Positions 1,675 to 58,557 of a stretch of DNA of 64,000 nt are shown here, one piece after another (position 1 is the stretch's first letter; each line of letters begins with the position of its first letter). A model generated the notes under the pieces. That model saw only the letters and a list, made by a program, of their open reading frames with translations, was not told the DNA's origin and made no database searches. Source of the DNA: a gamma proteobacterium HTCC2207 (GTDB lineage: Bacteria > Pseudomonadota > Gammaproteobacteria > Pseudomonadales > Porticoccaceae); the NCBI GenBank assembly GCA_000153445.1, contig CH672396.1, positions 405,668 to 469,667 on the forward strand, given 5' to 3'. Both the position numbers and the translations under genes were made by a program.

Positions 1675-1735
1675 ACAAAATCCCCAAAAAATTAAATTAC
1701 TACTCAGTTAAGAAGCTAACCATTCAGCTGCTTTG

Positions 1736-1752
1736 TGACAGCAGGGTGACAA
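1736..1752 (-). promoter_or_regulatory. Pho box facing the porin gene (distal to pstS)
   Basis: TGACAGCAGGGTGACAA read on + is the reverse complement of a PhoB-type box: two TGACA half sites at an 11-base period. One central triplet deviates from the AT-rich spacer. Confidence 0.55.
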
Positions 1753-1767
1753 CTCTATGTCTAAAAT

Positions 1768-1785
1768 ATGACATTATTGTGACAG
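1768..1785 (-). promoter_or_regulatory. Second Pho box facing the porin gene
   Basis: ATGACATTATTGTGACAG on + is a good reverse-strand PhoB site, with TGACA half sites 11 bases apart and an AT-rich spacer. With the box at 1736-1752 it makes a pair upstream of the porin. Confidence 0.7.
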
Positions 1786-1831
1786 TCATAAAATAGACAT
1801 AAAAACTTCATAAATCGCCTCTTAGGCACTT

Positions 1832-1849
1832 TTGTCATATTTCTGTCAC
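1832..1849 (+). promoter_or_regulatory. Pho box for the pst operon
   Basis: TTGTCATATTTCTGTCAC matches the known Pho box (CTGTCATA-N3-CTGTCAC type) with a single change at the first base. It lies 79 bases before the chosen pstS start and on its strand. Confidence 0.85.
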
Positions 1850-1927
1850 ATAAACTCAATAGTCTAGCCGGGCAAGCAAAAATTGATTAACTAGCAGCAC
1901 AGCCTGTGCTCTATTGTGGAGAGAAAT

Positions 1928-2986
1928 ATGAACAAGCGTACTAATCTTTTCGCCATATTATTGGCAGCAGCATCAGTGGCAGCAGCATCTTCTGCCCTAG
2001 CTCGAGACAGCATCGAAGTTGTAGGTTCTTCTACTGTCTATCCTTTTTCTACCGTGGTCGCTGAGCGCTACGGCCGATCCAGTGGTAAGCCTACTCCAAA
2101 GATTGAGTCCACAGGTTCTGGTGGTGGTATGAAATTGTTTTGTTCTGGTGTTGGTACTAACTACCCAGATATCACTAACTCTTCGCGTCGTATGAAAGCC
2201 TCTGAGTTTAAAAAGTGCCAGACCAATGGCGTAAAAGACGTTATCGAAGTCCATATTGGCTATGACGGCATTGTTATTGCTAACTCGATAAAGGTTGCGC
2301 CTATGAAGCTGACGCGCAAGGATATCTTTTTGGCACTGGCTGCCAAGGTACCGGGCGCTGTTGATGGCGAGTTGATCGAGAATCCATACAAAACCTGGAA
2401 GGATGTTAATCCGGCACTACCTGCCACCGCTATAGAAGTTATGGGTCCCCCGCCTACTTCTGGCACTCGCGATGCATTTGCCGAGTTGGGTCTGGAAGGC
2501 GGCTGTAAGAAAATCGATTGGATTAACGCGCTAAAGAAAACCGATAAACATGCCTTTAAAGAAGTGTGTCATACGATTCGTGAAGATGGCGTCTATATTG
2601 AAGCCGGTGAAAATGACAATCTGATCGTGCAAAAGCTTGAGGCTAACCCAGCCGCGCTGGGCGTGTTCGGCTTTAGCTTCCTCGATCAGAACGCTGACAA
2701 AGTTCAGGGGTCACTTATTGAGTCTGTAGAGCCAACCTTCGAGTCTATTGCCGACAAGTCTTACCCAATTTCACGTCCATTGTACTTCTATGTGAAGAAA
2801 GCCCACGTCGGTGTTGTGCCTGGTATACAAGGTTATCTGAACGAGTTCACTAGTGAAAAAGCTTGGGGTGAAGAGGGTTATCTTGCGGAGAAAGGCATGA
2901 TTCCATTGCCTATCAAAGAACGCCGAGCAATGGCCGAAAACACCCGAGGTCTGGTGCCTATGACTGGCAAAGAAGGATTGAAATAA
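1928..2986 (+). CDS. pstS: Phosphate ABC transporter, periplasmic binding protein
   Basis: The 352-residue periplasmic phosphate-binding protein of the PstSCAB transporter. A signal peptide (MNKRTNLFAILLAAASVAAASSALA) is followed by RDSIEVVGSSTVYPF. The GSSTV segment and SGTRDAF, near residue ~170, are phosphate-contacting stretches of the family. An in-frame GTG exists at 1916, but GGAGAG ends 5 bases before the ATG at 1928 and the signal peptide begins there, so 1928 is the likely start. It is first in the Pho-box-controlled pst operon and is followed by an intergenic hairpin that may keep its level above that of the membrane subunits. It belongs to the longer PstS form common in marine proteobacteria. 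Confidence 0.95.
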   Translation: MNKRTNLFAILLAAASVAAASSALARDSIEVVGSSTVYPFSTVVAERYGRSSGKPTPKIESTGSGGGMKLFCSGVGTNYPDITNSSRRMKASEFKKCQTNGVKDVIEVHIGYDGIVIANSIKVAPMKLTRKDIFLALAAKVPGAVDGELIENPYKTWKDVNPALPATAIEVMGPPPTSGTRDAFAELGLEGGCKKIDWINALKKTDKHAFKEVCHTIREDGVYIEAGENDNLIVQKLEANPAALGVFGFSFLDQNADKVQGSLIESVEPTFESIADKSYPISRPLYFYVKKAHVGVVPGIQGYLNEFTSEKAWGEEGYLAEKGMIPLPIKERRAMAENTRGLVPMTGKEGLK

Positions 2987-3009
2987 GTCCCAGAAGTTGT
3001 CACAGTACG

Positions 3010-3039
3010 GCCCGGCCAATTAGGCTGGGCTGTTTTTTT
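3010..3039 (+). terminator. Hairpin with T-tract between pstS and pstC (partial terminator)
   Basis: GCCCGGCC (3010-3017) pairs with GGCTGGGC (3023-3030) across AATTA, then TG and seven T. It lies inside the pst operon, so it probably acts as an attenuator that makes pstS mRNA more abundant than pstCAB. Confidence 0.75.
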
Positions 3040-3063
3040 ATCTGACGAGATTGTGCCAGTAAT

Positions 3064-4452
3064 ATGCAAGCGACAAATATTCTTATATTGATACTCGGGT
3101 TAGGTCTCTTTGCCTTTTACCTGGGTCGTGGCCGTTCATTGGCCCTAGCCAAACCCCTGGGCGGAATCCGCCATATTCATTCGCTGCCATCTTATTATGG
3201 CGCCCATGTGGCTCTCTGGTGCGCATTGCCGTCACTGCTGCTGCTCGGCCTGTGGATGATCTTTGATGGTCCATTGATTAACAGTATTGTACTTAAGTCT
3301 CTGGCAGCCGGAGGCATGGTGGTAGAGAGCAGCGGCGAAAGTTTGCTGATGAATAAGATCACCAATCTTGCTCAGGGCGTATTGCCGCGCAAAAGTGCAG
3401 ATCCCGAACTGGTTGCTGCCGCCGACCTAATGCTCCGACTTGAAGTGATATCGCGCTGGTCTTTAACCGCGCTGATGATGACCCTGTCGCTGATTGGATT
3501 TGGCTGGAGTTGGTCGCGTATTTCCTCAAGTTTTCGGGCTCGCCCCCGGGTTGAAAAGGTTATGGAGAAACTGCTCCTGGCCTGTGCCTGTGTGGCCATT
3601 TTTACCACTCTGGGGATTGTTCTTTCAGTACTGTTTGAATCTATTCAATTCTTTAGATCCGTGCCCATAGATGACTTTGTTTTCGGCCTTGATTGGAGCC
3701 CGCAAACGGCGATCCGTGAAGACCAGGTGGGTTCCTCCGGCAGCTTTGGTGCGGTGCCACTATTTGTCGGTACTCTTTTGATCTCAGCCGTGGCCATGTG
3801 TATAGCTGTACCGGTTGGCCTGATGTCGGCAATCTATCTTGCCGAATACGCCAGCCAGTCGGTGCGCGGTTTTGCCAAGCCGGCGCTGGAAGTACTCGCA
3901 GGTATTCCAACCGTGGTTTACGGTTTCTTTGCCGCTCTCACTGTGGCCCCATTTTTACGTGACCTTGGTGCTAGCTTTGGCCTTTCTGTCTCCTCTGAAA
4001 GTGCGCTGGCCGCTGGCGGTGTGATGGGGGTGATGATTATTCCCTTTATCTCTTCCCTGGCCGACGACGTAATTACTGCCGTGCCCCAGTCCATGCGTGA
4101 TGGTTCGCTGGCGATGGGCGCAACCAAATCTGAAACCGTGCGCAATGTGATTATTCCCGCCGCACTGCCGGGTATTGTCGGCGGCATTATGCTCGCCGTA
4201 TCTCGCGCTATTGGTGAAACCATGATTGTAGTGATGGCCGCCGGTATGGCTGCCAAGCTGACTGCCAACCCTCTGGACTCAGTGACTACAGTCACAGTGC
4301 AGATCGTCACCCTGCTAACCGGCGATCAGGAATTTGATAGCCCCAAGACATTGGCCGCCTTTGCCCTGGGTTTGATGCTGTTTGTGGTCACCTTAATGCT
4401 AAATATCTTTGCCCTACAGATTGTTAAGAAATATCGAGAGCAATATGAATAA
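3064..4452 (+). CDS. pstC: Phosphate ABC transporter permease PstC, long form
   Basis: A 462-residue inner-membrane permease, longer than the ~300-320 residues of the E. coli type. The last ~230 residues hold the binding-protein-dependent permease domain: the EAA loop region (AMGATKSETVRNVIIPAALPGI) that contacts the PstB ATPase, and AGIPTVVYGFFA, a typical PstC segment. The N-terminal ~220 residues add further membrane helices (near 5-20, 45-65, 130-150 and 175-195) separated by soluble loops. The gene overlaps pstA by 8 bases, so translation is probably coupled. Function follows from family and context; the role of the extra N-terminal part is unknown. Confidence 0.93.
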   Translation: MQATNILILILGLGLFAFYLGRGRSLALAKPLGGIRHIHSLPSYYGAHVALWCALPSLLLLGLWMIFDGPLINSIVLKSLAAGGMVVESSGESLLMNKITNLAQGVLPRKSADPELVAAADLMLRLEVISRWSLTALMMTLSLIGFGWSWSRISSSFRARPRVEKVMEKLLLACACVAIFTTLGIVLSVLFESIQFFRSVPIDDFVFGLDWSPQTAIREDQVGSSGSFGAVPLFVGTLLISAVAMCIAVPVGLMSAIYLAEYASQSVRGFAKPALEVLAGIPTVVYGFFAALTVAPFLRDLGASFGLSVSSESALAAGGVMGVMIIPFISSLADDVITAVPQSMRDGSLAMGATKSETVRNVIIPAALPGIVGGIMLAVSRAIGETMIVVMAAGMAAKLTANPLDSVTTVTVQIVTLLTGDQEFDSPKTLAAFALGLMLFVVTLMLNIFALQIVKKYREQYE

Positions 4453-5737
4453 GCCAGTAAATACGCCTGTAAACAATCTAGAAAAAATCAGAAAGTCCCT
4501 CAGCCGACGCAATCGTTCAGAGCGGCTTTTCCGCTGGTATGGCCGTCTCGCCATCTTTATTGGTCTGGCCGCTGTCACCGTATTGTTTACCGATATTGTC
4601 AGCAAAGGTCACGGCGCCTTCCGCATTGCTTATCTGCAATTGGAAGTGGGATACGATCAGGATTTGATTGGCGTGGATAACCTGACTGACCCAGAGCAGC
4701 TTATTTTGGGCAACTGGCAGGCGGTTCCCAAGCAGGCGCTGCGTCAGCAGTTTCCGGATGTAGCCGGGCGCAGTGATAAGCGCAAACTCTATGGCCTAGT
4801 GAGTAACGGATCCGGCTTTGATCTAAAAGACCGGCTGCTCGCTAACCCATTGTTATTGGGTACTCGTGAAACCGTCTGGGTACTGGCCGATGACGATATA
4901 GACACCTACTACAAGTCCTGGCTCGATGGCGAACCCTATGCCGCGCGACTCTCTGACAAGCAGGTGAAGTGGATTGGCGAACTCCACGATCAGGGCAAGA
5001 TTCGGCTGCAATTTAACAGTAACCTATTTACCCGGGGTGACTCGCGAGAGCCAGAACAGGCGGGTATTCGCGGTGCTGTCATGGGATCTCTATTTACTTT
5101 ATTACTGACTCTGATGCTGTCTTTCCCTGTTGGTGTAGCAGCGGCAATCTATCTTGAAGAGTTCGCGCCGAAAAATGGTTGGACTGATTTCATCGAAGTG
5201 AACATTAACAATCTAGCCGCGGTGCCATCAATTATTTTTGGTCTGCTGGGTCTGGCGATCTTTATTAACTTTTTCCATGTGCCGCGATCGGTTCCCATAG
5301 TCGGTGGTCTGGTGCTGACCCTGATGACTTTACCAACGATTATTATTACCAGCCGCGCGGCGATTAAATCAGTGCCGCCGTCGATACGCGAAGCGGCTCT
5401 GGGTATGGGCGCATCAAAATATCAGATGGTTATGCACCATGTGCTGCCCCTGGCCTTACCCGGCATGTTAACCGGTGCGATTATCGGTATGGCTCAGGCG
5501 CTGGGTGAATCGGCGCCACTGCTAATGATCGGCATGGTCGCCTTTATTGTCGATATTCCCGCTGGCTTTAATGATCCGGCAACGGTTCTGCCAGTGCAGA
5601 TCTTTCTTTGGGCTGACAGTCCAGAGCGCGCCTTTATCGAAAAAACCTCCGCTGCCATTATGGTGCTGCTGAGCTTTTTAATTGTTATGAATACATCCGC
5701 CGTGTGGGTGCGCAAGCGCCTCGAACGTCGCTGGTAG
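4445..5737 (+). CDS. pstA: Phosphate ABC transporter permease PstA, long form
   Basis: The partner permease of PstC, about 430 residues. The C-terminal ~220 residues carry the permease domain, with NNLAAVPSIIFGLLGLA and the EAA loop AALGMGASKYQMVMHHVLPLALPG. An inserted soluble domain (about residues 45-195) follows the first membrane helix. It resembles the extra N-terminal domain known from many proteobacterial PstA proteins and should lie in the periplasm. The longer reading from 4409 would add 12 residues, but the ATG at 4445, which overlaps the pstC stop by 8 bases (ATGAATAA), is the more natural start. Confidence 0.93.
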   Translation: MNKPVNTPVNNLEKIRKSLSRRNRSERLFRWYGRLAIFIGLAAVTVLFTDIVSKGHGAFRIAYLQLEVGYDQDLIGVDNLTDPEQLILGNWQAVPKQALRQQFPDVAGRSDKRKLYGLVSNGSGFDLKDRLLANPLLLGTRETVWVLADDDIDTYYKSWLDGEPYAARLSDKQVKWIGELHDQGKIRLQFNSNLFTRGDSREPEQAGIRGAVMGSLFTLLLTLMLSFPVGVAAAIYLEEFAPKNGWTDFIEVNINNLAAVPSIIFGLLGLAIFINFFHVPRSVPIVGGLVLTLMTLPTIIITSRAAIKSVPPSIREAALGMGASKYQMVMHHVLPLALPGMLTGAIIGMAQALGESAPLLMIGMVAFIVDIPAGFNDPATVLPVQIFLWADSPERAFIEKTSAAIMVLLSFLIVMNTSAVWVRKRLERRW

Positions 5738-5749
5738 AAAGGAAAAACT

Positions 5750-6604
5750 ATGAATGCAACTGACCCTGCAATGGGCGCCAAGGCCGAAGTAAAACAGAAT
5801 CTTGAAGTGGCGGATAATCAGGTCACCGTGGGCAGCTGTTTTACCGATGCGCCAAAGATGACCATGCGCAACGTCAACGTCTTTTACGATGACAAGCAGG
5901 CGATTCACAATGTCAGTGTCGATATTGCCAAGAATGAAGTGATTGCAATGATTGGTCCATCGGGCTGCGGCAAGTCGACTTTTTTGCGCTCGCTTAATCG
6001 TATGAACGATACGGTTGAAAGCTGCCGAGTCGAAGGTGAAATTTGCATGGATGGTGAAAACCTCTATGCCCCCAAGCTGGATGTTGTGGAGTTGCGCGCC
6101 CGAGTAGGAATGGTTTTTCAAAAGCCTAACCCCTTTCCAAAGTCGATCTATGACAATGTCGCCTACGGCCCCAAGATTCACGGTTTGGCCGATACTAGAG
6201 TTGACCTCGACGAGATCGTTGAAAACAGCCTGCGCAAAGCCAGTCTGTGGGAAGAAGTAAAAGAGCGGTTGCATCAGTCGGGCACCGGTTTATCCGGCGG
6301 TCAGCAACAGCGACTCTGTATTGCTAGAGCCATTGCTGTGAGTCCCGAAGTGATTTTGATGGATGAGCCTTGCTCAGCACTGGATCCTATTGCCACGGCA
6401 AAAATTGAGGAACTGATCGAAGAGCTGAGCCAAAACTTTACCATTGCCATTGTGACGCACTCCATGCAGCAGGCAGCTCGGGTTTCACATCGCACGGCTT
6501 ACTTTCACTTAGGCCGCTTGATTGAAGTGAATCCCACAGAGCAGGTCTTTACCATGCCAGAGCATGAGCTCACAGAAGCCTACATCACCGGTCGCTTTGG
6601 TTAA
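5750..6604 (+). CDS. pstB: Phosphate ABC transporter ATPase
   Basis: The 284-residue ATP-binding subunit that powers phosphate import. Visible motifs are Walker [10 protein letters not shown], the Q-loop segment [14 protein letters not shown] typical of PstB, the signature LSGGQQQR, Walker B VILMDEP followed by CSALDP, and the switch His in VTHSM. About 35 non-conserved residues precede the ATPase fold. AAAGGA lies 7 bases before the ATG. It follows pstA by 12 bases and precedes phoU, the standard order. Confidence 0.96.
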
Positions 6605-6632
6605 GTGATTAAGTGTTTAAGTGATTGAGCGG
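6601..6632. repeat. 8-bp direct repeat between pstB and phoU
   Basis: TTAAGTGA occurs at 6601-6608, as TTAAGTGT at 6609-6616, again as TTAAGTGA at 6617-6624, and in decayed form at 6625-6632. The first copy covers the pstB stop codon. This looks like slipped-strand expansion; no function is evident. Confidence 0.7.
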
Positions 6633-6696
6633 GCCGAATTTAATCGGCTAAAAGCCATATTAGTTAGGTAGCCAAAGAGGCTAAGCGGAGAAGACA

Positions 6697-7380
6697 ATGG
6701 ACAAGATGACGTTCGAAAACCATTACATGAAGCAGTTCGATGAAGAGCTCGAAGAGATTCGCACTCGCCTGATGGAAATGGGTGGCAAGGTTGAGCAGCA
6801 GCTGCAAAATGCGATTCGCGCGATTGGCGAAGCCGACAGTAAGCTCGCCGAAGAAGTGATTAAAGAAGAACAGCTAGTCGATAATATGGAAGTTGATATA
6901 GACGAGGCCTGTATTCTTATTATTGCCCGCCGCCAGCCCGCGGCCAGCGACCTGCGCCTGGTAATGATGGTCACTAAAGCGGTCAATGATCTCGAGCGGA
7001 TCGGCGACGAAGCGAAAAAGATTGCCAACCATGCACTTATTCTTGCCAATGAGAGCGGCTCGTCAAAGGGTTACACCGAAGTCCGCCATCTTGGCCAGTC
7101 GGTTATCAGCATGCTCAGCAATGCTCTCGATGCCTTTGCGCGCTTTGATGTGGATGCGGCTATGCGCACTATTGAAGAAGATAAGCAGATCGATCAGGAG
7201 TACAAGACCGCCCTGCGTGAATTGGCGACTTATATGATGGAAGATCCTCGTAGCATTAGTCGAGTGATGAATGTTCTTTGGGTAGTTCGCTCTCTAGAGC
7301 GGATTGGCGATCACGCTAAAAATCTCTGTGAGCAGATTGTCTTTGTTGTAAAAGGTAAAGATATCCGCCATCAGAAGTAG
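6697..7380 (+). CDS. phoU: Phosphate signalling protein PhoU
   Basis: A 227-residue protein made of two three-helix PhoU repeats (about 15-105 and 120-210). The metal-binding family motif appears as DLERIGDEAKKIA and again as SLERIGDHAKNLCEQ. PhoU links the PstSCAB transporter to the PhoR kinase and keeps the Pho response off when phosphate is plentiful. GGAGAAG sits just before the ATG. It is last in the operon, followed by a strong terminator. phoB and phoR are not in the window. Confidence 0.96.
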   Translation: MDKMTFENHYMKQFDEELEEIRTRLMEMGGKVEQQLQNAIRAIGEADSKLAEEVIKEEQLVDNMEVDIDEACILIIARRQPAASDLRLVMMVTKAVNDLERIGDEAKKIANHALILANESGSSKGYTEVRHLGQSVISMLSNALDAFARFDVDAAMRTIEEDKQIDQEYKTALRELATYMMEDPRSISRVMNVLWVVRSLERIGDHAKNLCEQIVFVVKGKDIRHQK

Positions 7381-7412: not shown

Positions 7413-7446
7413 AGCGGAAGTTTTGACTTCCGCTTTTTTTATTTTT
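7413..7446 (+). terminator. Terminator of the pst-phoU operon
   Basis: A perfect 9-bp stem, AGCGGAAGT / ACTTCCGCT, with a TTTG loop, followed by a T-rich run. Confidence 0.9.
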
Positions 7447-7540
7447 TCCTGCTGTTTTTTTAATCTCTTTGTCTAAGCTTTTTATTCAGGCCCTTCATCC
7501 GGGCTCTTCATTCAGATCCTTCATCTAGAGAAAGAGTCTG

Positions 7541-7580
7541 CTGTCATTAAACTGTCATTTAATATTCATTTAAACGTCAT
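7541..7580 (+). promoter_or_regulatory. Tandem Pho boxes upstream of the surface lipoprotein and receptor
   Basis: Four PhoB half sites at an exact 11-base period start at 7541, 7552, 7563 and 7574: CTGTCAT, CTGTCAT, TATTCAT, ACGTCAT, each separated by four A/T bases. The first pair, CTGTCATTAAACTGTCAT, is a near-perfect Pho box. The array ends 61 bases before the start codon at 7642 and points toward it. Confidence 0.88.
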
Positions 7581-7641
7581 CAAGCACTGTTAAATTTTCT
7601 CCCGATCTAAATCTTAATACAAAATTTTTCGGGAGTTTCCA

Positions 7642-9285
7642 ATGTCTATAAACAAACTAATTCTTTCCAGTGCGGTTGCACTAGCTCTAACTGGTTGTGG
7701 CGGCGGTGATATCAATATCGCGCCGGCTAACTCGACATCCATTGGCGACACAGTCACCAATGTTACCAACGAAGGTAGCACCAACGCAGATGTTAGCTGC
7801 GCCTCTTACACTCTGGCCGGCACTGTCTCTCAGGGCTCATTCGACGGCACTAACTGTATCTACTCAAAGGGTTTTGTGGATATAGATAACCCACTGACCT
7901 TTGACTTAGCCGTACCTAATATCGGCACCGGCGTACACGTATTTGAAGGCAGCCTGGTTGTAGGTCAAAACTACTCATCAGATGCTGATCTGGCAACTGC
8001 TGGACTCTCTGAAGGCGGCGATGGCCCGGTATTAACAATTGCGGCGGGCACAACCTTGGCCTTCCGTAGTGCTGACGACTTTATGGTGGTTAACCGCGGT
8101 TCACAGATGCGCGCTAACGGAACTGCCACAGCCCCAATTACGCTTACCTCACAAACTGACGCTGTCTTCGGCACTGTAGGCGCAGAAGATGTTGGCGAGT
8201 GGGGCGGTCTGGTTATTAACGGCTTCGGTGTGACCAATAAATGTGCTTACACTGGCACTTACCCAGCTGTCGCCACAAGCGATTGTCATGTTGCATCCGA
8301 AGGTAAAGCAGATGTTGGCGAGAGCCACTATGGCGGTGATAACAATGCCGATAACTCTGGGGTACTAAAGTATCTGATCGTCAAGCACACCGGTGCTGAA
8401 GTAGCGCCAGGCAACGAGCTCAATGGAATAGCGTTTAATGCGGTCGGTAACGGTACGCTAATTGAAAATCTTGAAGTCTACAGCGTCTACGACGACGGCA
8501 TTGAGTTCTTTGGTGGTGCAGTTGATATCACTAACTACGTGGCTATGTATGTGCGTGATGATGCTATAGATATAGATGAAGGCTATCGTGGAACCATTAC
8601 TAATGCCCTGGTTATTCAGTCAGAGACTGATGGTAACCGCTGCGTTGAATCTGATGGTATCGGAAGCTACTCGAGCAAAGATCAAACAAGTATCGATGAT
8701 TTTATTGCTCGTGGTTTGAATTCTCAGGCAACAATTAAAAACCTTACGTGCATTATCTCGGCCAACCAGTCTGGTACCCATGAAGAAGGCCAGGGCCTGC
8801 GTATTCGTGAAGCCCATTTCCCAACCATTCAAAACGCTATTGTCACTGCATCCTATGGTGCTGACGAATTGCTCGGCGATACAGACCACAACTGGTGCTT
8901 CCGCCTCGACAATGAAGGTCAGCAAGCAGCACAGGACGGAAATCTAGTCGTCGCCTCTTCAATTCTTGCCTGCCAGGATCTGACTAAAGGCAACAGTCTG
9001 CCAAATGGCACCTCGACTGCTGACTGGTTAACGACCTCGGGCAACTTGCTCTACCAAACAGCTGAAGCTGGCGACGACCCAACCGCTGCTAGCAATGCTG
9101 ATCTGGTTATTCTCAATGGCTTCTACTCAGTTCCAGTAGCCGATATGGTTGTGGGTACAGAGAGTATTCCGACACCGGTTGATTCATCCATTATCGGTGC
9201 AGTTTCAGCTGACAACGATTGGACTGCTGGCTGGACTTATGGGTTACATGAAGGCAGCCGCGCTCAGCCATTATGGTTCGAGTGA
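7642..9285 (+). CDS. Surface lipoprotein with beta-helix-like repeats, predicted Pho regulon member
   Basis: A 547-residue lipoprotein. The signal ends in the lipobox LTGC (Cys19), followed by GGGD, which favours the outer membrane. The body lacks catalytic motifs I recognise. It has repeated turns of the type GTLIENLEVYSVYDDGIEF and AIDIDEGYRGTITNALV, and WGGLVINGFG, as in right-handed parallel beta-helix proteins, and six or more Cys. Acidic DDGIEF and DIDEGYRG stretches could bind metal. GGGAG precedes the ATG. The next gene is a TonB-dependent receptor, so it may be its surface partner. The tandem Pho boxes suggest a task in phosphate or organophosphate capture. The substrate is inference. 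Confidence 0.78.
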   Translation: MSINKLILSSAVALALTGCGGGDINIAPANSTSIGDTVTNVTNEGSTNADVSCASYTLAGTVSQGSFDGTNCIYSKGFVDIDNPLTFDLAVPNIGTGVHVFEGSLVVGQNYSSDADLATAGLSEGGDGPVLTIAAGTTLAFRSADDFMVVNRGSQMRANGTATAPITLTSQTDAVFGTVGAEDVGEWGGLVINGFGVTNKCAYTGTYPAVATSDCHVASEGKADVGESHYGGDNNADNSGVLKYLIVKHTGAEVAPGNELNGIAFNAVGNGTLIENLEVYSVYDDGIEFFGGAVDITNYVAMYVRDDAIDIDEGYRGTITNALVIQSETDGNRCVESDGIGSYSSKDQTSIDDFIARGLNSQATIKNLTCIISANQSGTHEEGQGLRIREAHFPTIQNAIVTASYGADELLGDTDHNWCFRLDNEGQQAAQDGNLVVASSILACQDLTKGNSLPNGTSTADWLTTSGNLLYQTAEAGDDPTAASNADLVILNGFYSVPVADMVVGTESIPTPVDSSIIGAVSADNDWTAGWTYGLHEGSRAQPLWFE

Positions 9286-9324
9286 GAGCTTAAAAATAAC
9301 TAGGCTGTTTATCCAAGGGTGCCG

Positions 9325-9358
9325 AGATGCGGTGCCCTTTTCAGCTTCAGCTAGTTTT
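9325..9358 (+). terminator. Weak terminator-like hairpin after the lipoprotein gene
   Basis: The sequence GGGTGCC-GAGATGC-GGTGCCC-TTTT can fold with two G-U pairs. Partial read-through into the receptor gene would fit a shared transcript. Confidence 0.4.
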
Positions 9359-9385
9359 CAGTTTAGAGACTTTTGGTACCCAAGG

Positions 9386-9443
9386 TTTTCAATCCCTAGT
9401 GCTTTTAATCTCTAATGCTTTCAATCTCTAACTCTATCAATCG
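9386..9443. repeat. Degenerate ~16-bp tandem repeat before the receptor gene
   Basis: About three and a half copies of a unit like TTTCAATCTCTAATGC (TTTTCAATCCCTAGTGC, TTTTAATCTCTAATGC, TTTCAATCTCTAACTC, TATCAATCGC). No function is evident. Confidence 0.6.
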
Positions 9444-9463
9444 CACATGCTATAGGTTCAGAC

Positions 9464-12151
9464 ATGACATATAAAATTAAACTACTCAGCGCACAGATCA
9501 TCGCCGCCAGCCTCTTGGGCATGAGCGGATCGGTATTTGCGCAAATGAAAAGTATTGCCGATGAGCCAGTGCTCGAAGAAGTAATCACTTTTGCCAAACT
9601 GAAAAGCGCCGCTGATGATGTCATCGTCGAACGCCTTGAAAGCGATGTGGTCGCCGACATTATTGATGCCGAAACCATTGGCCGTATTGGCGACTCGACT
9701 GTCGCATCGGCGCTGCGACGAGTGCCTGGCGTCACTCTGGTGGATGACAAATTTGTATTTATTCGTGGACTCGGTGAACGCTATTCCAACTCATTATTAA
9801 ATGGTGCGGTGATTCCATCACCGGACTTAACCCGAAATGTGATTCCCCTGGATATTTTCCCAACGTCAATTTTGAAATCCATCGCAGTGAAAAAAAGTTA
9901 CTCCGCAGAAATGCCAGCAGCCTTTAGTGGCGGTCTAATTGATATTCGTACACGCAGCATTCCAGACCAGTTTATGTTCACTGTAGAAGTGGGCTACAAA
10001 CAAAATATTGATTCTCGCGGCGATGTGCTTTCATACCGCGGGGGTAGCGATGACAGTCTGGGAACAGACGATGGCACACGCAGCCTGTCAGGCGAACTAA
10101 TCTCTGCGGTCAATATGTATGGCGGTTCACTGAGCCCTATCGATATTCTCAACCGCATTAACCTTGGTGACGGCACTAAAACTTTAGCCGATGCTGAAGC
10201 GATCAATCGAAACTTAGCCCTGCACCTAAATCGCAATGTCGATATCAGCGAGCAGTCAGACGATTTAAGTGGCAGCATCGAAAGCAATATTGGTAATAAT
10301 TTTTATTTAGATAACGGTATGGAAGTGGGCTTTATGCTTGGCGGAGTCTACGGCAGTGAGTGGGCCAATAAAGATTCGATCGATCGGTCATATGGCGACC
10401 CAGAAGATATTTTTGCTGCTAAAAAAGAGTCGACTTACAGCGTTAATATGACCGGTAATGCGAGCTTCGGCTGGCGCTGGTATGACGATCACCGCATCGA
10501 GACCACTAGTATATTTTTACGCAATACTGACGATAAAGCCTCGATTACCGATAGCCATACCTCCAGCTTTCCCCTCAGTGATGGCCAGGGTTTTCGTCAG
10601 TATAAAACCCGCTTTGAAGAGCGTAATTTGACGGTCAATCAAATCCGTGGCTTTCATCGTTTTGGCGGTATCACCAGGGATTTAATTGGCTTCGAAAAGT
10701 TCGACTGGCTGGATGAATTGACCTTCGATTGGTTCTACTCTGACGCAATGTCGCGCACAGATATTCCCAATCAAACCAATATTCTTTTCAAGACCGCAGT
10801 TGATTCGGATAGCGCAGAGGTGAGCGCGCAGAACCTCCAAGCTTCGGCCTCGGCAGCTGATTTTCGTTTCACCGATCTCAATGATGATGTCGAGAGCTAT
10901 GGTTATGATTTCAAGTTGCCACTGATGATGTCCTTTGGCGATCTGACTTTGACTGGCGGCTATCGCTACTCACAGAAAACCCGCAGCTATGAGCAGTTGC
11001 AGTTCGGCTTGGGAACAGATGACACCGCCGTTGCCCAAAGCGCAATCGGGACAGTGTCGGAGATTTTCAGTGATGCCAATATTGTCGATGCAGACAACGG
11101 TTTTAATGTTGCTGTGATCGGCAGCAATGGCGAAAGCTACTTGGCAGCCCTGACTAACACCTCGGCCTACGGCACCATTGACCTGCTCTATGACGAGACC
11201 TGGAGATTGATGCTTGGAGCCCGTTGGGAAGACTACAACCAAGTGGGTATCCCCTGGAATCCGTTGAAATTTGAAGGTTGCCAGATCAGCTGTAATGAAA
11301 CTACTCTAATGAATTCTGTGTTTAAAGAAGATGATTTTTATCCCTCTGTTTCTGTCACTTACATAAAGCCAGATTTCTGGGCTGAAGATTTTCAGTTGCG
11401 CTTTGGCTACAGTGAAACTTTGGTGCGTCCAGATCTGCGTGAAATTACACCCTCGAGTTATTTGGATCCGATCACCGGTGCTCGTGTCAGTGGCAATGCT
11501 AATGTGATACCCGCTACGGTAACCAATTATGATCTGCGTGCTGAGTGGTTCTTCTCCGATGGCGACAACTTTACTGCGTCGCTGTTCTACAAGGATATCC
11601 AGAACCCAGTTGAGTTCTTTGAAGCTGCCGCATTTGAAGAAGCCCTGGCGACAGAAATTGTCAATGCTGAAAGCTCGACAGTTTATGGTTTAGAACTTGA
11701 ATGGTTAAAGGGCTTAGGCTTTATAAGCAGTGATTTTGAGTCACTGTTTGTCGCCGGTAATATGACGGTACTCGACTCTGAATTAACAGCGGGAGAGTTT
11801 GCCGATGCGCCAACTAATGCTACTCGACCAATGGCAGGTGCCTCTGATTATGCGCTTAACTTTCAGTTGGGTTACGACTCTGAAGATGGCAAACACAGTG
11901 CCATGCTGATCTATAACGTATTTGGTGAACGACTTTATTTTGCCGGGCGCAACGGTTCACCGGATGCCTATGAACAGCCGTTTAACTCATTGGATGCGAC
12001 TTATTTTTTCTATCCTACAGAACAGTTTACGGTGAAGTTTAAACTTAAAAACTTGCTTGATGAAAAAATTGAGATTACCCAAAATGCAGTAGTCACTCAC
12101 GAAGAGCAGCCGGGAACCATGGTGGCACTTGATGTGAAGTGGAGCTTTTAA
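9464..12151 (+). CDS. TonB-dependent outer-membrane receptor, predicted Pho regulon member
   Basis: An 895-residue TonB-dependent receptor. A signal peptide is cut after SVFA and the plug domain covers about residues 60-180, with ALRRVPGVTLVDD, VFIRGLGERYS and the PSPDLTRNVIPLD segment. The rest is a 22-strand-type barrel ending in VKWSF. It would import a ligand too large for porins, using energy from TonB, whose genes are not here. It follows the Pho-box-controlled lipoprotein by 178 bases with only a weak hairpin between, so the two may be expressed together. It could instead serve the GH81 laminarinase next door. The Pho-box position favours a phosphorus compound, but the substrate is unknown. 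Confidence 0.9.
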   Translation: MTYKIKLLSAQIIAASLLGMSGSVFAQMKSIADEPVLEEVITFAKLKSAADDVIVERLESDVVADIIDAETIGRIGDSTVASALRRVPGVTLVDDKFVFIRGLGERYSNSLLNGAVIPSPDLTRNVIPLDIFPTSILKSIAVKKSYSAEMPAAFSGGLIDIRTRSIPDQFMFTVEVGYKQNIDSRGDVLSYRGGSDDSLGTDDGTRSLSGELISAVNMYGGSLSPIDILNRINLGDGTKTLADAEAINRNLALHLNRNVDISEQSDDLSGSIESNIGNNFYLDNGMEVGFMLGGVYGSEWANKDSIDRSYGDPEDIFAAKKESTYSVNMTGNASFGWRWYDDHRIETTSIFLRNTDDKASITDSHTSSFPLSDGQGFRQYKTRFEERNLTVNQIRGFHRFGGITRDLIGFEKFDWLDELTFDWFYSDAMSRTDIPNQTNILFKTAVDSDSAEVSAQNLQASASAADFRFTDLNDDVESYGYDFKLPLMMSFGDLTLTGGYRYSQKTRSYEQLQFGLGTDDTAVAQSAIGTVSEIFSDANIVDADNGFNVAVIGSNGESYLAALTNTSAYGTIDLLYDETWRLMLGARWEDYNQVGIPWNPLKFEGCQISCNETTLMNSVFKEDDFYPSVSVTYIKPDFWAEDFQLRFGYSETLVRPDLREITPSSYLDPITGARVSGNANVIPATVTNYDLRAEWFFSDGDNFTASLFYKDIQNPVEFFEAAAFEEALATEIVNAESSTVYGLELEWLKGLGFISSDFESLFVAGNMTVLDSELTAGEFADAPTNATRPMAGASDYALNFQLGYDSEDGKHSAMLIYNVFGERLYFAGRNGSPDAYEQPFNSLDATYFFYPTEQFTVKFKLKNLLDEKIEITQNAVVTHEEQPGTMVALDVKWSF

Positions 12152-12185
12152 AATATCTAACTCATGAATAAAAATCATCAAACGC

Positions 12186-12213
12186 AAAAAGGCTCCTTAA
12201 TCGGAGCCTTTTT
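12186..12213 (+). terminator. Terminator after the TonB-dependent receptor gene
   Basis: AAAAGGCTCC pairs with GGAGCCTTTT around TTAATC, a 10-bp stem followed by T's. Confidence 0.88.
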
Positions 12214-12261
12214 TACTGTTACTGTTTCGAACTATGTAGTCAATATGACCAAATAGTGCTC

Positions 12262-12565
12262 TTAGGCCTTGGCGCTCGGGCGAGCATTAATCTTGTCGAA
12301 CCAGCGCTGCAGGTTTACACAGTCTTCTGGAATTTACTTTTTGATCCAGCGGGGAAAGCCTATGGTCGTAAATGCGGTGATGTCGGCAATCGAGAAATAG
12401 TCGCCAAAAATTAATTCGCTGTTGGCAAACTGGGCGTCCAAATCACGGAATAAATGATCGGCACGCAACATTCCGCGTTCAGCTAAGCAAGGAATTTGAT
12501 CATAGGCATTCGGCCCGGCAATAGCTCGACCTTCAAACATCGGATTGGAGTTTCTAAAGCCTTTT
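12262..12565 (-). pseudogene. Decayed fragment of a glutathione S-transferase-like gene
   Basis: This stretch closely matches the C-terminal part of the intact GST gene at 16622-17251. Its readable part (12334-12540) encodes FEGRAIAGPNAY and DHLFRDLDAQFANS, almost as in the intact gene. Downstream, the ACCAGCGCTGCAGGTTTAC stretch also matches, but a stop has arisen where the intact gene reads on (GGAATTTACTTTTTG against GGAATGGTCTTTTTA). The match ends near 12565, so the N-terminal half is gone. It is a dead partial copy lying just upstream of the GH81 gene, while the intact copy lies just downstream in the same orientation. Confidence 0.88.
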
Positions 12566-12590
12566 ATTTAGTTCTTTATCTATTGCTACA

Positions 12591-12610
12591 GCAGAAGTTT
12601 CGACTTCTGA
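12591..12610. other. Small perfect hairpin with TTCG loop
   Basis: CAGAAGT-TTCG-ACTTCTG forms a 7-bp stem with a stable tetraloop. No T-run follows, so it is not a clear terminator. Apart from this and an AAGCGCTT palindrome near 12776, I see nothing between the GST fragment and the GH81 start. Confidence 0.45.
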
Positions 12611-12813: not shown

Positions 12814-15800
12814 GTGTTTAATTCAGCCAAAGTACTATCGCTAACTATCTTTCTAGCGTCTCTCACACTGCAAGCCTGTGGCGGCGGAGGTGGGGGTGGT
12901 TCTACACCAGCTCCAACACCAACACCAACACCAAATCCAACGCCAGATACAACTAAGCCAATTATCACCCTAAACGGTGACGCTAGCCTGAGCATTGAGC
13001 AGGGCACGCCTTACACTGAAGCCAATGCCACGGCGGATGATGCGGTAGATGGTCCGGTGGATGTAGTGATCAGCGGCACCGTTGATACTAGTCCGGGTAC
13101 TTATACTCTCACCTATACCGCAGTGGATGCAGCCGGAAACAGTGCAAGCATAACTCGAACTGTTACCGTCACTGCAGTCGAACCAGAACCCGATACAACT
13201 AAACCCGTTATCACCTTGAATGGCGAAGCCAGCCTAAGTATTGAACAGGGCACAGCTTACACTGAAGCCAATGCCACGGCAGTAGATGCGATAGACGGTT
13301 CAGTAAATGTAGTAATTAGCGGCACTGTTGGCAGTAGTGTGGGTGCTTATACTCTCACCTATACCGCAGTGGATGCAGCCGGTAACAGTGCAAGCATAAC
13401 GCGAACAGTTACCGTCACTGGCGCTGAGCCAGAACCTACAACTGACGATACTTTTATCCTCAATGATGGCGTGGTTGAAGCAATCTGGGGTGGTGACGCG
13501 GAGTTATCATTCTTTGATAGTAAGCTAAATTATGGCCAGGCTGATGCCAGCTGCTCAGGAACAAACTGCGACAGCGTTGACTGGAAAGTGGTTACTGATG
13601 CCGATCGCGGCGACGTGCTTCAGGTCAGTTACACAGCCGATGCCGGTCATGCCGGTCTGGTAGTGGGCCCGACTGCTGCTATTGACCTCAGTGACTATGC
13701 TGACGGTAACTTCTCATTTGATATTAAACTGATTAATGCTGCGAATGCTCTGGCCGGAGGATTCTTCCTTAAGATTGAGAGTGGTGTGGCTCCTGCTATT
13801 TCAAATTCTGGTGAACTACCAATTCCCGGTATCGTTGCCAGCGGCGACTGGCAGACTATTAATTTTCCAGTGTCATCACTGACTGCCAGTGGTGCGATTA
13901 ACCTCTCAGATATCACTGCGCCAATGGTATTTTTCCCTAAGGCTGGTAACGGTCCTAGCTTAGTTTATCAAATTGATAATGTGCGCTTTAGTGGTATTTC
14001 CGATGGCGCTACACCACCTACAGATGACGGTGGCGGGTCTCAAGGACCCACAGACTACACAGTGGTGTCTTACGGTGCTGGTAGCATAGCTGATACCCTC
14101 TATACCGCTAGCCATCGCTGTAAAAACGATTACGGTTATTGGGTTGAAAATGCCGGTGTTATATCGACGCAGTCAGATGTTCAAATAAAGGGTTGTGATC
14201 AGGGCAGTGGAATCCCAACCGGCAACATAACTAAGCTGTACCCTCAGTTGGCGGGTCCCGCTGCTGAAAAGCCCACGCAAACACATAAATGGTGGGGTTC
14301 TGTCTCATTTCTTGGCGAAATGACCGTAGGTGATGCAGCTGATGCGGCCTATATCACTCCGGATCCTATTACCGCTCGCATTACCAACAAAGGTGTTCGC
14401 GTTGCGGGTATTCCATCCGGAATGAGAATTGATGGAGCGAACAACTTTTACTATCCAATTCCAGATCATGCTGCTGAAGTCTTCGATGGTTTAGCGATTG
14501 GCAATTCCGATTACGCCAATTTAGAGGCCTTTGCCAAGGATCACAGTGCCGGTTCTGTTACGGTTTTGTGGAAAAGTGGTGATACAGATGTAATGGAAGC
14601 CACCTTTGTGCATGGCTCCCCCTATGTTTACTTCAAGGCCTACAGCGGTAATTTAGAAGTCCGTACATTTCGGCAGGATGGCGGTGAAAAGGGCACATTT
14701 ATTACCGGCGAGAACGTAATGGGTATCTGGACTAGTGTGGCCTCAAATTCCAACAACTATTTGATTGTTGGTGAAGGCGCAACGACTTTTACGGACACTT
14801 CAGAGAATCCCGAAGACCCTACAACGATGGGCAAGGTCGAGATAAATAATAGTACTGATGAAATGACCTTAGTTTACCTTCCGCATCTACAGGCAGGTAC
14901 AGCGCCAAACGCTATGGTTGATCTTTTTGCCAGCAAGGCCCGCAATCCTGTGGCCGAGGTCGACATTGACTACCAAGTAAATGCTGCAACCAATGAAGTA
15001 ACCGTCACCCACAGTTACTTAGATGATCAGGGCAATGCTGTAGATACAATTGCTGGTATGCATCCATTGCACTGGAAAAATACATCGCAAGCCACGACTA
15101 GCTATAAGGTTCGAAGTGCTCGAGGCATGGTGAAGTTTGCTGAGGTTAATACGTTTAGCTACCAGATACCCTATGTTGGTGTGTTGCCTACATTCCCAGT
15201 TGTTGGCGATAGCCTTGACCAGACAACCCTTAAAGGACTGGTTACTGAATTTGTCAGCAAGGGCTCTGGTGCGTGGAATTTATCTGGCGGAGGTGTTGAA
15301 GAAACCGATACTTACTGGACCGGGAAAAATTATGGCAAGGTCGCTGAGCTTGCCGCGATTGCCCGTTCTCTTGATATGCAAAGTGAAGCTGATCAGTTGG
15401 TCAACTGGTTGAAGGCGGAACTTGCAGATTGGTTTACCGCAGAGACAGATGGCACGCTAAACACAAAAAAATACTTTGTCTACGATGATGACTGGAATAC
15501 GTTGCTCGGGTTTGATGAATCCTTTGGCTCACATCAGCGTTTAGCCGATCACCATTTTCACTATGGCTATTTTGTCCGTGCGGCTGCCGAGATCTGCCGC
15601 GTCGATCTAGCCTGGTGTGGTGATGACCAATATGGGCCAATGATCGAGCTTCTAATTCGTGATTACGCAGCGGATACAGACGATGCATTGTTTCCTCACA
15701 TGCGCAATTTTGATCCCGCCAATGGCTTCTCCTGGGCTGATGGTCAGGTTAATTTCACCCGCGGAAACAACAATGAGTCCACCTCCGAGGCAGCCACTGC

Positions 15801-16512
15801 ATATGGTGCAATTATTCTCTATGGATTGACCACCGGAAATACGGAGTTAACTGAGCGGGGCATGTATCTCCATGCGTCAACCGGTGCCGCATATTGGGAG
15901 TATTGGAATAATATTGACGGCTACAACAATGTCAGTGCTGATGCAGATAACTTCCCTAGCGGATACAACCGGATCACCACCTCAATTATCTGGGGCGACG
16001 GTGCGGTTTTCTCTACTTGGTTCAGCGGTGCATTTGCGCATATTTTAGGCATTCAGGGTCTTCCATCCAGTCCACTAATATTGCATGTCGGCTTGCATGC
16101 GGACTATATGAAAGACTATGTCGCCCTGGGATTGAGCGAGTCCTCCAATGGCAAGCCTTCGGGCCTACTCAATGATCAGTGGCGCGACCTGTGGTGGAAC
16201 CTCTGGGCTATGGTGGATGCAGATGCGGCAATTGCTGACTACAACAGTGCTGGTAGCTATACCCCTGAAGCGGGTGAAACCAAGGCTCACACTTATCATT
16301 GGCTGCATACTTTTAATGCATTGGGGCAGTTAAAGACAGGCACCGGCGCCTTGACCTCTGATTACCCATCGGCACTGGCCTTTGATAATGATGGTGTTAG
16401 AACCTATGTGGTGTATAACTTCACGGCGCAGGAGAGGGTAGTGAGCTTTAGTGATGGCAAGCAGGTCACGGCTACAGCGAATGGGTTTACGCTGATAAGC
16501 GCAGATTTGTAA
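12814..16512 (+). CDS. Secreted GH81 endo-beta-1,3-glucanase lipoprotein (laminarinase)
   Basis: A 1232-residue multidomain enzyme with a GTG start and CGAGGG upstream. The lipobox LQAC (Cys22) is followed by seven Gly and a Pro/Thr linker to residue 44. Two Ig-like domains of 82 residues each (45-126 and 127-208) are near-identical copies. A carbohydrate-binding-like beta-sandwich lies at about 215-390. The GH81 catalytic region runs from about 410 to the end, with THKWWGSVSF, the DHHFHYGYFV motif carrying the catalytic Asp, and NNNESTSEA carrying the catalytic Glu region. It should cut internal beta-1,3 bonds of laminarin at the cell surface or outside. It sits alone between GST copies; the rest of the glucan genes are at 50-60 kb. 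Confidence 0.9.
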   Translation: MFNSAKVLSLTIFLASLTLQACGGGGGGGSTPAPTPTPTPNPTPDTTKPIITLNGDASLSIEQGTPYTEANATADDAVDGPVDVVISGTVDTSPGTYTLTYTAVDAAGNSASITRTVTVTAVEPEPDTTKPVITLNGEASLSIEQGTAYTEANATAVDAIDGSVNVVISGTVGSSVGAYTLTYTAVDAAGNSASITRTVTVTGAEPEPTTDDTFILNDGVVEAIWGGDAELSFFDSKLNYGQADASCSGTNCDSVDWKVVTDADRGDVLQVSYTADAGHAGLVVGPTAAIDLSDYADGNFSFDIKLINAANALAGGFFLKIESGVAPAISNSGELPIPGIVASGDWQTINFPVSSLTASGAINLSDITAPMVFFPKAGNGPSLVYQIDNVRFSGISDGATPPTDDGGGSQGPTDYTVVSYGAGSIADTLYTASHRCKNDYGYWVENAGVISTQSDVQIKGCDQGSGIPTGNITKLYPQLAGPAAEKPTQTHKWWGSVSFLGEMTVGDAADAAYITPDPITARITNKGVRVAGIPSGMRIDGANNFYYPIPDHAAEVFDGLAIGNSDYANLEAFAKDHSAGSVTVLWKSGDTDVMEATFVHGSPYVYFKAYSGNLEVRTFRQDGGEKGTFITGENVMGIWTSVASNSNNYLIVGEGATTFTDTSENPEDPTTMGKVEINNSTDEMTLVYLPHLQAGTAPNAMVDLFASKARNPVAEVDIDYQVNAATNEVTVTHSYLDDQGNAVDTIAGMHPLHWKNTSQATTSYKVRSARGMVKFAEVNTFSYQIPYVGVLPTFPVVGDSLDQTTLKGLVTEFVSKGSGAWNLSGGGVEETDTYWTGKNYGKVAELAAIARSLDMQSEADQLVNWLKAELADWFTAETDGTLNTKKYFVYDDDWNTLLGFDESFGSHQRLADHHFHYGYFVRAAAEICRVDLAWCGDDQYGPMIELLIRDYAADTDDALFPHMRNFDPANGFSWADGQVNFTRGNNNESTSEAATAYGAIILYGLTTGNTELTERGMYLHASTGAAYWEYWNNIDGYNNVSADADNFPSGYNRITTSIIWGDGAVFSTWFSGAFAHILGIQGLPSSPLILHVGLHADYMKDYVALGLSESSNGKPSGLLNDQWRDLWWNLWAMVDADAAIADYNSAGSYTPEAGETKAHTYHWLHTFNALGQLKTGTGALTSDYPSALAFDNDGVRTYVVYNFTAQERVVSFSDGKQVTATANGFTLISADL
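12946..13437 (+). repeat. Internal 246-bp duplication encoding two Ig-like domains
   Basis: Units 12946-13191 and 13192-13437 encode the same 82-residue domain with few changes. A stretch covering the TYTLTYTAVDAAGNSASIT part is nearly identical at DNA level, which points to recent duplication or gene conversion. Confidence 0.85.
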
Positions 16513-22203: not shown

Positions 22204-22595
22204 GGGGGCGTTTTGGATTCGACGACGGCTACAAAACCTCCGGTGCATGCCGAGATGGTGACCAATCTCGTTAATCCAAAGTCGCAAACTTATAGTTGCC
22301 AACGACGACAACTACGCACTAGCTGCTTAAACCCCAGTGTAGTGCCGTCTGACTGGAGACGTGCTTATGCGTCCAGAGTTTGAAATCCTTCGGGAGAGAT
22401 AACGCTCAGGCGTCATATCTCATAAGATCGTGATGAAGCTTGTTCGGGGCGGATTCACTAAAAACTTACCGAAATCGTGCGCTGTGCGCCCTGTCAGTCG
22501 GGTTACAGCGTACTAAAATTAAAGACTGAACTAAGCATGTAGAGCCGTAGGCAGCGGGCTGGCGGACGCGGGTTCAATTCCCGCCGCCTCCACCA
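22204..22595 (+). ncRNA. ssrA: Transfer-messenger RNA (tmRNA)
   Basis: tmRNA rescues stalled ribosomes. The 5' end GGGGGCG pairs with CGCCTCC before the 3' ACCA, giving a 7-bp acceptor stem. GGATTCGACG and GTGCATGCCGAG follow the 5' end, and GACGCGGGTTCAATTCCCGCC forms the T arm at the 3' end. The tag reading frame, from GCC at 22298 to TAA at 22328-22330, encodes ANDDNYALAA, close to the gammaproteobacterial ANDENYALAA. CCA is encoded. Its 3' end is a known integration target, and an integrase starts 163 bases downstream. Confidence 0.97.
22571..22595 (+). other. Probable attachment site (attL) in the 3' end of ssrA
   Basis: The T-arm to CCA end of tmRNA is a usual attB for P4-type tyrosine integrases. 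The integrase directly downstream implies the element inserted here, keeping the tmRNA intact. I found no second copy of this segment further right in the window. Confidence 0.6.
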
Positions 22596-22601
22596 AACAA
22601 T

Positions 22602-22619
22602 AGCCCCGCAAGGGGCTTT
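22602..22619 (+). terminator. Hairpin after ssrA
   Basis: AGCCCC-GCAA-GGGGCT followed by TT; a compact stem with a short T-run, likely the tmRNA terminator. Confidence 0.65.
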
Positions 22620-22720
22620 AAAGTACCATAAAGTATTGATTTAAATATATTTTATAGCCTTTTCAAGGCGCAGAAAGATCCACCAGATATTGTAAAAACC
22701 CACGATTTATGTAACAATTA

Positions 22721-22760
22721 ATGTAACAAAAAAGAGGAAAGCGCGGTCCTTTTGTTACAT
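22721..22760. promoter_or_regulatory. Inverted repeat covering the integrase start
   Basis: ATGTAACAAAA (22721-22731) and TTTTGTTACAT (22750-22760) are perfect 11-bp arms. A further TATGTAACA lies at 22709-22717. The right arm contains the integrase ATG and the loop holds AGAGGAAAG. This could be an operator for the AlpA-like protein, an integrase arm site, or an RNA hairpin controlling translation. Confidence 0.6.
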
Positions 22761-49966: not shown

Positions 49967-49986
49967 AAAGCCCCGGAAGGGGCTTT
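49967..49986 (-). terminator. Terminator of the cytoplasmic GH17 pair
   Basis: AAAGCCCC-GGAA-GGGGCTTT, followed on the minus strand by a run of T (A at 49962-49969). It includes the last bases of the GH17 gene stop codon. Confidence 0.88.
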
Positions 49987-51795: not shown

Positions 51796-52096
51796 GGGGG
51801 GTTTTAGACCTCTCAAGTTGATTATTATTATTATTGGAATTCGATAGATAAAATGCTACCTGAGCCCTGACCAAGTTTCAACGAAGCTCAAGTCCATCTT
51901 ATCCCGATGAGACGCCATATTAACTCATTGTGATAAATGCAGTATTGCGTAAAAAAAGGTCTGACATTAGGATACCCGCCGCTTAAAACGTCTCGCCAGC
52001 CCCTTTAGGCATTGGGCTGGACGTTTAAAACCATACAAAATTACGGACATCGAGGCGTTTCTCGGTGACGTTAAAAATATAATGTTTAGGGAAACC
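51796..52096. promoter_or_regulatory. Divergent promoter region with structured leader
   Basis: It lies between the GH17 pair and the GH149 gene. An ATT microsatellite lies at ~51821-51836. A large hairpin lies at 51983-52029, where TTAAAACGT pairs with ACGTTTAA and CCAGCCC (51996-52002) with GGGCTGG (52014-52020). A small CGAG-GCGTTT-CTCG hairpin follows near 52050-52065. Confidence 0.55.
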
Positions 52097-55561: not shown

Positions 55562-55601
55562 TAATAGTCAAGGCAAAGCCCACTGCGTTGTTGCCAGAAA
55601 C

Positions 55602-55632
55602 AAAAAAGCCGCCTGATCAGGCGGCTTTTTTT
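55602..55632. terminator. Bidirectional terminator between the GH149 and transporter genes
   Basis: A perfect palindrome, AAAAAAGCCGCCTGA and its complement, 30 bases long, with A and T runs at both ends. Confidence 0.95.
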
Positions 55633-55673
55633 ATGCGCTGAGATTACTCAGCTTTTTTCAGCGGTAGTATGCT

Positions 55674-57125: not shown

Positions 57126-57197
57126 AGTTTTTATCGCTGTTATTATTATGTAGTAAGGCTATTTCTTTACGGCTTCAAGTATAGGAGAGGCCCCCTA

Positions 57198-58439: not shown

Positions 58440-58557
58440 TTCTTGGTTCTCTGTGCGCGAAAATAACTCTTAAGTTTACTTCAACTCAGTAAGAGTCAGG
58501 CAGTCCATTCATCGTGGAAAAAACCACTGTTCGTCGCTAATAAAGGGTGGGGCTCAC

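Follow-up and report, generated by a model that had tools for sequence, protein, structure and literature searches.

Directly behind the phosphate-uptake genes of strain HTCC2207, a lipoprotein gene is followed by a gene for a TonB-dependent receptor. The locus raises the question of which signal drives this pair and what it does at the outer membrane. The window, by which we mean the whole 64,000-nucleotide stretch analysed, was described earlier from its letters alone. That preliminary description read the pair as a Pho-box-controlled candidate uptake system for a phosphorus compound that porins could not pass because of its size. Its account of the layout was confirmed: both genes lie directly after pst-phoU, and four half-sites with an exact 11-base period precede them, only the first two being perfect. 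The features are collected in Table 1.

Table 1. Coordinates of the features at the pst-phoU locus of the window, with strand and evidence
Feature	Position	Strand	Evidence
Pho boxes of divergent porin (−) and pstS (+), internal positive control	1735..1849	.	pattern and four-unit scans
pstSCAB-phoU, left neighbour (phoU ends at 7380)	1916..7380	+	named by eye; order conserved in relatives
phoU intrinsic terminator, parts pst-phoU from the pair	7413..7434	+	hairpin −13.4 kcal/mol, z −4.75
Pho box of four half-sites with an 11-base period, the first two perfect	7541..7580	+	pattern scan, genome scan
ElpS-family lipoprotein, 547 aa, lipobox cysteine C19, beta-helix-like	7642..9285	+	ORF, alignment, structure model
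Hairpin between lipoprotein and receptor genes	9315..9339	+	10-pair stem; folded stretch z −2.96
TonB-dependent receptor, 895 aa, CC0171-like partner	9464..12151	+	Plug and TonB_dep_Rec domains
Terminator-like hairpin with T run, closes the pair's transcription unit	12186..12213	+	folded stretch z −4.52
GH81-type protein right of cassette, no Pho box	12814..16512	+	box scoring, domain search

The Pho-box consensus used for scoring is the direct repeat CTGTCATN4CTGTCAT. The half-sites ahead of the pair are CTGTCAT at 7541 (7/7), CTGTCAT at 7552 (7/7), TATTCAT at 7563 (4/7), and ACGTCAT at 7574 (5/7), the last two being weak. Scanning the window at up to three mismatches gave 11 matches against 5.49 expected, and 3 of 100 shuffles gave as many. 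The only exact match was at 7541, and the only other sites with up to two mismatches, 1768(−) and 1832(+), both lie between the divergent porin and pstS. The 7541 array reached a four-unit score of 23/28, compared with a maximum of 20 in 100 random sequences (first-order Markov, 64 kb each, both strands). The second-highest score in the window, 21, belongs to the porin promoter.

The scan was also run on the organism's 2.6-Mb assembly (98.6% complete). The 7541 site was the single exact match, and three sites had one mismatch: at the phoB start, ahead of the ribosomal protein S1 gene (named by eye), and inside an ORF. At up to two mismatches the genome held 20 Pho-box sites versus 18 for a reversed-pattern control; the evidence for the box therefore lies in its exactness and position, not in the count. 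These results support 7541–7580 as the putative Pho-box promoter of the pair, to which PhoB would bind.

Just left of the window (G000:C5 401993-404064) are ORFs of 250 and 424 aa, recognised by eye as PhoB and PhoR; together with the one-mismatch box at the phoB start they occupy 401977-404064. The phoBR genes, the porin, pst, and the pair all fall within about 16 kb. The porin, of Porin_4 type (703-1849), lies divergent to pstS, with a multi-unit Pho box of its own (21/28 at 1746 and 1735, minus strand); a Pho-box porin thus accompanies the receptor pair. The strong hairpin between the two genes of the pair is a possible attenuation or processing site, and with it the lipoprotein could outnumber the receptor. 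The hairpin behind the receptor gene was absent from the list of a simple terminator scan and was found by folding. Co-expression with laminarin genes, which the preliminary description had set against Pho control, gained no sequence support because the receptor gene is followed by this hairpin and GH81 lacks a Pho box. On the same grounds we rejected an operon link to GH81 and laminarin genes.

Several other features of the window were observed. The GH81 gene adjoins the cassette, and GH17-like and phosphorylase-like genes at 49985-60526 form, by eye, a laminarin locus. From 22204-24009 onward, a tmRNA gene is followed by a tyrosine-type integrase (by eye) and a long run of aromatic-degradation genes (by eye) that continues to about 49 kb; the whole resembles a genomic island located at the tmRNA gene. 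In the relative L110, an ORF at 18161 starts like this integrase.

The lipoprotein has the lipobox LTGC, C19 is invariant in a 16-sequence alignment, and lipidation is predicted. Neither Pfam nor NCBIfam yielded a hit for it at E ≤ 1, hence no SusD-family match at that threshold, and no phosphatase or phytase domain by Pfam. A PDB sequence search returned one weak hit only (E 0.057), and PHROGs one weak hit with residues 8-73 (E 0.0007). The AlphaFold2 model (pLDDT 87.7; residues 1-49 of low confidence) shows many short strands. It was built on an alignment of 58 sequences: 63 of the best 80 loci were tried, 6 were dropped for stops or unknown residues, and 57 were used, while 17 of the 80 were kept out as long or multi-domain matches.

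The top PDB neighbours of this model in Foldseek were mostly polysaccharide-active proteins and tailspikes, which we take to be of the beta-helix fold class. No match reached E ≤ 0.001 (best E 2.6e-3), and TM values were mostly below 0.3. The lipoprotein thus looks most like a beta-helix protein, nearest to carbohydrate-active ones, with no significant match, and to this extent the model and Foldseek bear out the predicted beta-helix-like character. A comparison with phosphatase folds had also been proposed; none of the 50 listed of 170 fold matches was named as phosphatase or phytase, and none was significant.

The acidic residues D284, D285, E288, D306, and D310, and also N261, are invariant in the lipoprotein alignment and lie on or beside the short strands 258-260, 287-290, and 309-312. 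The arrangement of the acidic residues along successive strands would fit a stacked site for a metal or a ligand, judged from strand positions in the model. A DDGIEFFGG-type motif occurs in 1, 2, or 3 copies per lipoprotein (L125-L204), with length steps of roughly 450 aa. By length, the best 80 of at least 552 loci comprise 45 one-domain, 26 two-domain, and 9 three-domain lipoproteins.

The fold matches raise the alternative that a glycan is what the pair binds and takes up, with phosphate starvation merely the signal and the beta-helix a carbohydrate-binding or -cleaving surface protein. Homology modelling of Flavobacterium johnsoniae lipoproteins, as described in the accessible part of the paper, pointed likewise to polygalacturonase (PMC8115612), and a GH81 gene adjoins the cassette. 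We consider this alternative improbable: no fold match is significant, GH81 stands without a Pho box behind a terminator-like hairpin, and across the genus pairs occur with and without GH81, and GH81 also without a pair.

Homologues of the lipoprotein were found at 552 or more loci of the genome collection, and the wider-family counts below describe the best-scoring 80 of them. Relatives occur in 42 of the 143 kin genomes, a count that includes its own, and on plasmids of Pseudoalteromonas, Sphingomonas, and Bacteroides. The nearest named relatives among the best 80 come from Porticoccaceae assemblies (98 and 93%). The receptor matched 65 plasmid records, none above 60% identity. Pairing with a receptor was confirmed: in 77 of the best 80 loci a receptor gene lies within 700 bases of the lipoprotein gene, with the order lipoprotein-receptor in 76 of the 77. 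In the remaining 3 the receptor gene is absent nearby or 4-5 kb off.

Comparing neighbour genes by BLAST with a small set of reference genes placed type II secretion genes next to the pair in 16 of the best 80 loci and ExbB/ExbD/TonB-type genes in 16. The pst genes were near the pair in a few, including the uncultured Kordiimonas loci L185 and L196, where the pair is preceded by pst and followed by gsp genes.

These pairs lead to a known family. In Caulobacter crescentus, ElpS (CC0170) is an outer-membrane lipoprotein encoded beside the TonB-dependent receptor CC0171, and the lipoprotein-receptor-gsp layout has been published for Caulobacter, Xanthomonas, Sphingomonas, and Hyphomonas (PMC2996285, in the part available). 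We observed it in Sphingomonas, Indioceanicola, Brevundimonas, Phenylobacterium, and Xanthomonas, and both window proteins align with homologues of this layout. The window lipoprotein shares 37% identity over 259 aa with the Sphingomonas lipoprotein and also aligns to those of Brevundimonas, Phenylobacterium, and Xanthomonas (the last as two ORFs). As no C. crescentus locus was among the best 80, Caulobacteraceae relatives stood in for CC0170. Judged by sequence through these relatives, the window pair is a member of the ElpS/CC0171 family; it is therefore not an orphan (PMC2996285, PMC8115612, in the accessible text of each).

The shared features are the adjoining lipoprotein and receptor genes and the phosphate-starvation context described for ElpS (PMC2996285, available part). 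Several TonB-dependent receptors are members of the PhoB regulon of Caulobacter (PMC11208175, available part). The window pair differs in following pst-phoU, in having its own four-unit Pho box, and in the lack of adjoining gsp genes, whereas in C. crescentus a type II secretion cluster lies beside the pair and the two genes are reportedly regulated separately (PMC2996285, same part). By eye, no type II secretion genes adjoin the pair among the window ORFs, and gspD is found elsewhere in the genome. As such genes adjoin the pair in only 16 of the best 80 loci, this layout is a trait of some ElpS-family members.

The F. johnsoniae lipoproteins FI, FII, and FIII, compared here through the accessible description in PMC8115612, are induced by phosphate depletion and are 31-36% identical to the Caulobacter protein, with a coverage of 50-54%. 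One ElpS-type lipoprotein is the top induced gene and the most abundant exoprotein at phosphate depletion, two lipoproteins induced at low Pi are encoded downstream of TBDTs that are also induced at low Pi, and FII is in the phoBR cluster (PMC8115612). They resemble the window lipoprotein as ElpS-related proteins tied to low-Pi TBDTs, but belong to another phylum and other clusters, with the receptor first as in the type-B loci described below (PMC8115612). Deletion of Fjoh_3856 or Fjoh_0546 left colony expansion unaffected, phosphorus use lying outside that question in the text available (PMC7807042). SusCD and PusCD systems also combine a surface lipoprotein with a TonB-dependent transporter, and PusCD is induced by phosphate depletion (PMC8115612, accessible part); the window lipoprotein, however, is not SusD (no Pfam hit) and is predicted to be beta-helix-like.

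The published ElpS model offers another alternative, in which the lipoprotein chiefly assists phosphatases, at the surface or after release, and the receptor imports something else or has another role. According to the accessible text of PMC2996285, ElpS is tied to extracellular phosphatase activity without having any itself: its overexpression raises extracellular alkaline phosphatase activity, and its deletion causes no change. CC0171, unlike elpS, is expressed in rich and poor media alike (PMC2996285). We judge this alternative unlikely, though worth keeping in view, because the receptor gene adjoins in 77 of the best 80 loci, and because in one genome (G041, below) the box and both genes moved as a single block.

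The description of the substrate as a phosphorus compound "too large for porins" is unsupported as written; the predicted fold leans toward glycan-type beta-helices, and the pair may import a large phosphorus compound. The literature searched, which covered few subscription journals and was seen in part, names no substrate for an ElpS-type lipoprotein/receptor pair.

Control by a Pho box was tested across the wider family with 77 of the best 80 loci, 3 being dropped for short upstream DNA. A box of at least 12/14 preceded 13 of 77 pair-first genes versus 13 of 652 other ORFs of the same loci (Fisher p 2.6e-7), and one of at least 11/14 preceded 33 of 77 versus 35 of 652. At 13/14 the excess was not significant (2/77 vs 3/652, p 0.09). 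Among the 13 genes at 12/14 or more, 2 (L125 and L126) belong to the window's genus, and 64 of the 77 pairs scored below 12/14. No box was visible in L040, L042, L045, L047, L048, L052, L064, L065, L069, and L072, all outside the genus. These box-less members indicate that Pho control is not universal in the family or does not always take this form.

Within the genus, 50 genomes were sampled and the pst-phoU locus was found in 40, including G013, where phoU reads in pieces. We define the slot as the position between phoU and gst-dxs. Five loci (L106, L119, L120, L123, and L124) end before it and were left unscored. The 35 readable genomes fall into three states: type A in 9, type B in 14, and no pair in 12. 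Type A is the window's own, lipoprotein then receptor; type B has a receptor of about 1012 aa followed by a two-domain lipoprotein of about 935 aa, and the receptors of the two types share about 26% identity. Because the contig ends before the lipoprotein in L118, L121, and L122, these were assigned to type B by the receptor alone (47-53% identity). A gene reads in two pieces in L035, L050, L055, and L059.

Six of the pair-less slots are empty and six hold other genes (GH81-like, M20 peptidase, AraC, and Ig-domain proteins), so the site accepts other cargo. In L112, L113, L115, and L117 we observed an Ig-domain lipoprotein, an M20 peptidase twice, and an AraC regulator.

Slot boxes were scored as the best of 14 in the 250 bases ahead of the pair's first gene, with 300 shuffles. 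Every one of the 9 type-A loci, the window among them, and each of 11 type-B loci reached 11-14/14, and at most 1.7% of shuffles scored as high. Three further type-B loci, cut by contig ends, scored 11, 10, and 10, where 10 is chance level. In total, 21 of 23 pair-bearing slots carry a box of 11-14/14 (type A 9/9, type B 12/14). Nine control stretches (second gene, GH81, gst, dxs, phoU) scored 7-9, and twelve pstS and porin promoters, the positive controls, 12-14. In 11 of 12 pair-less slots the best coding-strand score was at most 9, with opposite-strand values of up to 10, and the twelfth had no room; these gaps measure 49-259 bases, and short length alone lowers the best score. Judged on these scores, the presence of the Pho box largely follows that of the pair.

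That the box is a chance repeat is consequently very hard to maintain. The near-equal genome counts at up to two mismatches, and the two pair-bearing slots at only 10/14, are what can be said for it; the genome-wide uniqueness of the exact match and the separation of 21 pair-bearing slots from the measurable pair-less ones contradict it. The conservation in close relatives for which the preliminary description had asked holds within the genus; in the wider family many pairs are without a recognisable box.

On the Pst/PhoU protein tree the three slot states need at least 11 changes, compared with a mean of 16.4 for shuffled labels, and so reflect both inheritance and exchange. One exchange can be followed at nucleotide level. 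In G041 (locus L049) the Pst, PhoU, and GH81 proteins match their counterparts in the type-A genome L031 at 96-99% identity, and the DNA alignment of the two (95%) stops at the phoU stop codon and restarts 23 bases beyond the second gene. The pair that G041 holds in between is of type B and shares 94% protein identity with that of L058, whose Pst/PhoU proteins are only 82-89% identical. These alignments show a recent swap of one block, from the phoU stop codon to just past the second gene. By eye, the Pho-box region of G041 resembles those of L058 and L055, so the box travelled together with the pair.

A loss was also observed. G044 (L105), the nearest to the window on the Pst/PhoU tree, is without about 7436-12574, the gap edges being uncertain by 37 bases through the overlap of two alignments. 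The window cassette is bracketed by two related hairpins, at 7413-7434 and about 12590-12610, where L105 has a single one, a pattern consistent with recombination at the flanking hairpins.

We propose tentatively, at somewhat less than even odds, that the post-phoU position is a dedicated slot which swaps whole box/lipoprotein/receptor cassettes between species, non-orthologous pairs of reversed order included, and that the flanking hairpins may guide clean loss. As the ElpS family is already known, the new elements are this exchange slot and a promoter that moves along with its pair. If the proposal holds, cells would change their phosphorus source or the phage that attaches while keeping the regulation. 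Surface receptors are common phage targets, and the 11 or more slot-state changes would also suit pair swapping as an escape from phages or other receptor-using agents, not as a response to differing phosphorus sources. We regard escape as the driving force as possible but unlikely.

Taken together, our preferred reading, to which we assign a probability of about 0.7, is a PhoB-driven two-gene cassette that encodes an ElpS/CC0171-family pair for phosphorus scavenging at the outer membrane. The sequence, the box, the gene order, the family membership, the conserved pairing, and the joint movement of box and pair were observed here. Phosphate-starvation induction and an outer-membrane or exoproteome location are described for the relatives ElpS and FI-FIII (PMC2996285, PMC8115612, accessible text).

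In this organism, low phosphate would lead PhoB to bind the four-unit box, and the lipoprotein and receptor would be made from one transcript. The lipoprotein would reach the outer membrane through the Sec and Lol routes and face outward. There its beta-helix, with the invariant acidic residues, would capture a phosphorus-bearing polymer or aid a phosphatase on that polymer, and the partner receptor would import the product with TonB energy. The ElpS work suggests the phosphatase-helper role, and the predicted fold suggests the polymer.

The genus offers a natural experiment, in which two distant pair types and pair-less versions share one position, for the most part with a similar kind of box. 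Comparing growth of type-A, type-B, and pair-less strains on different phosphorus sources would be a direct test of the family's function.
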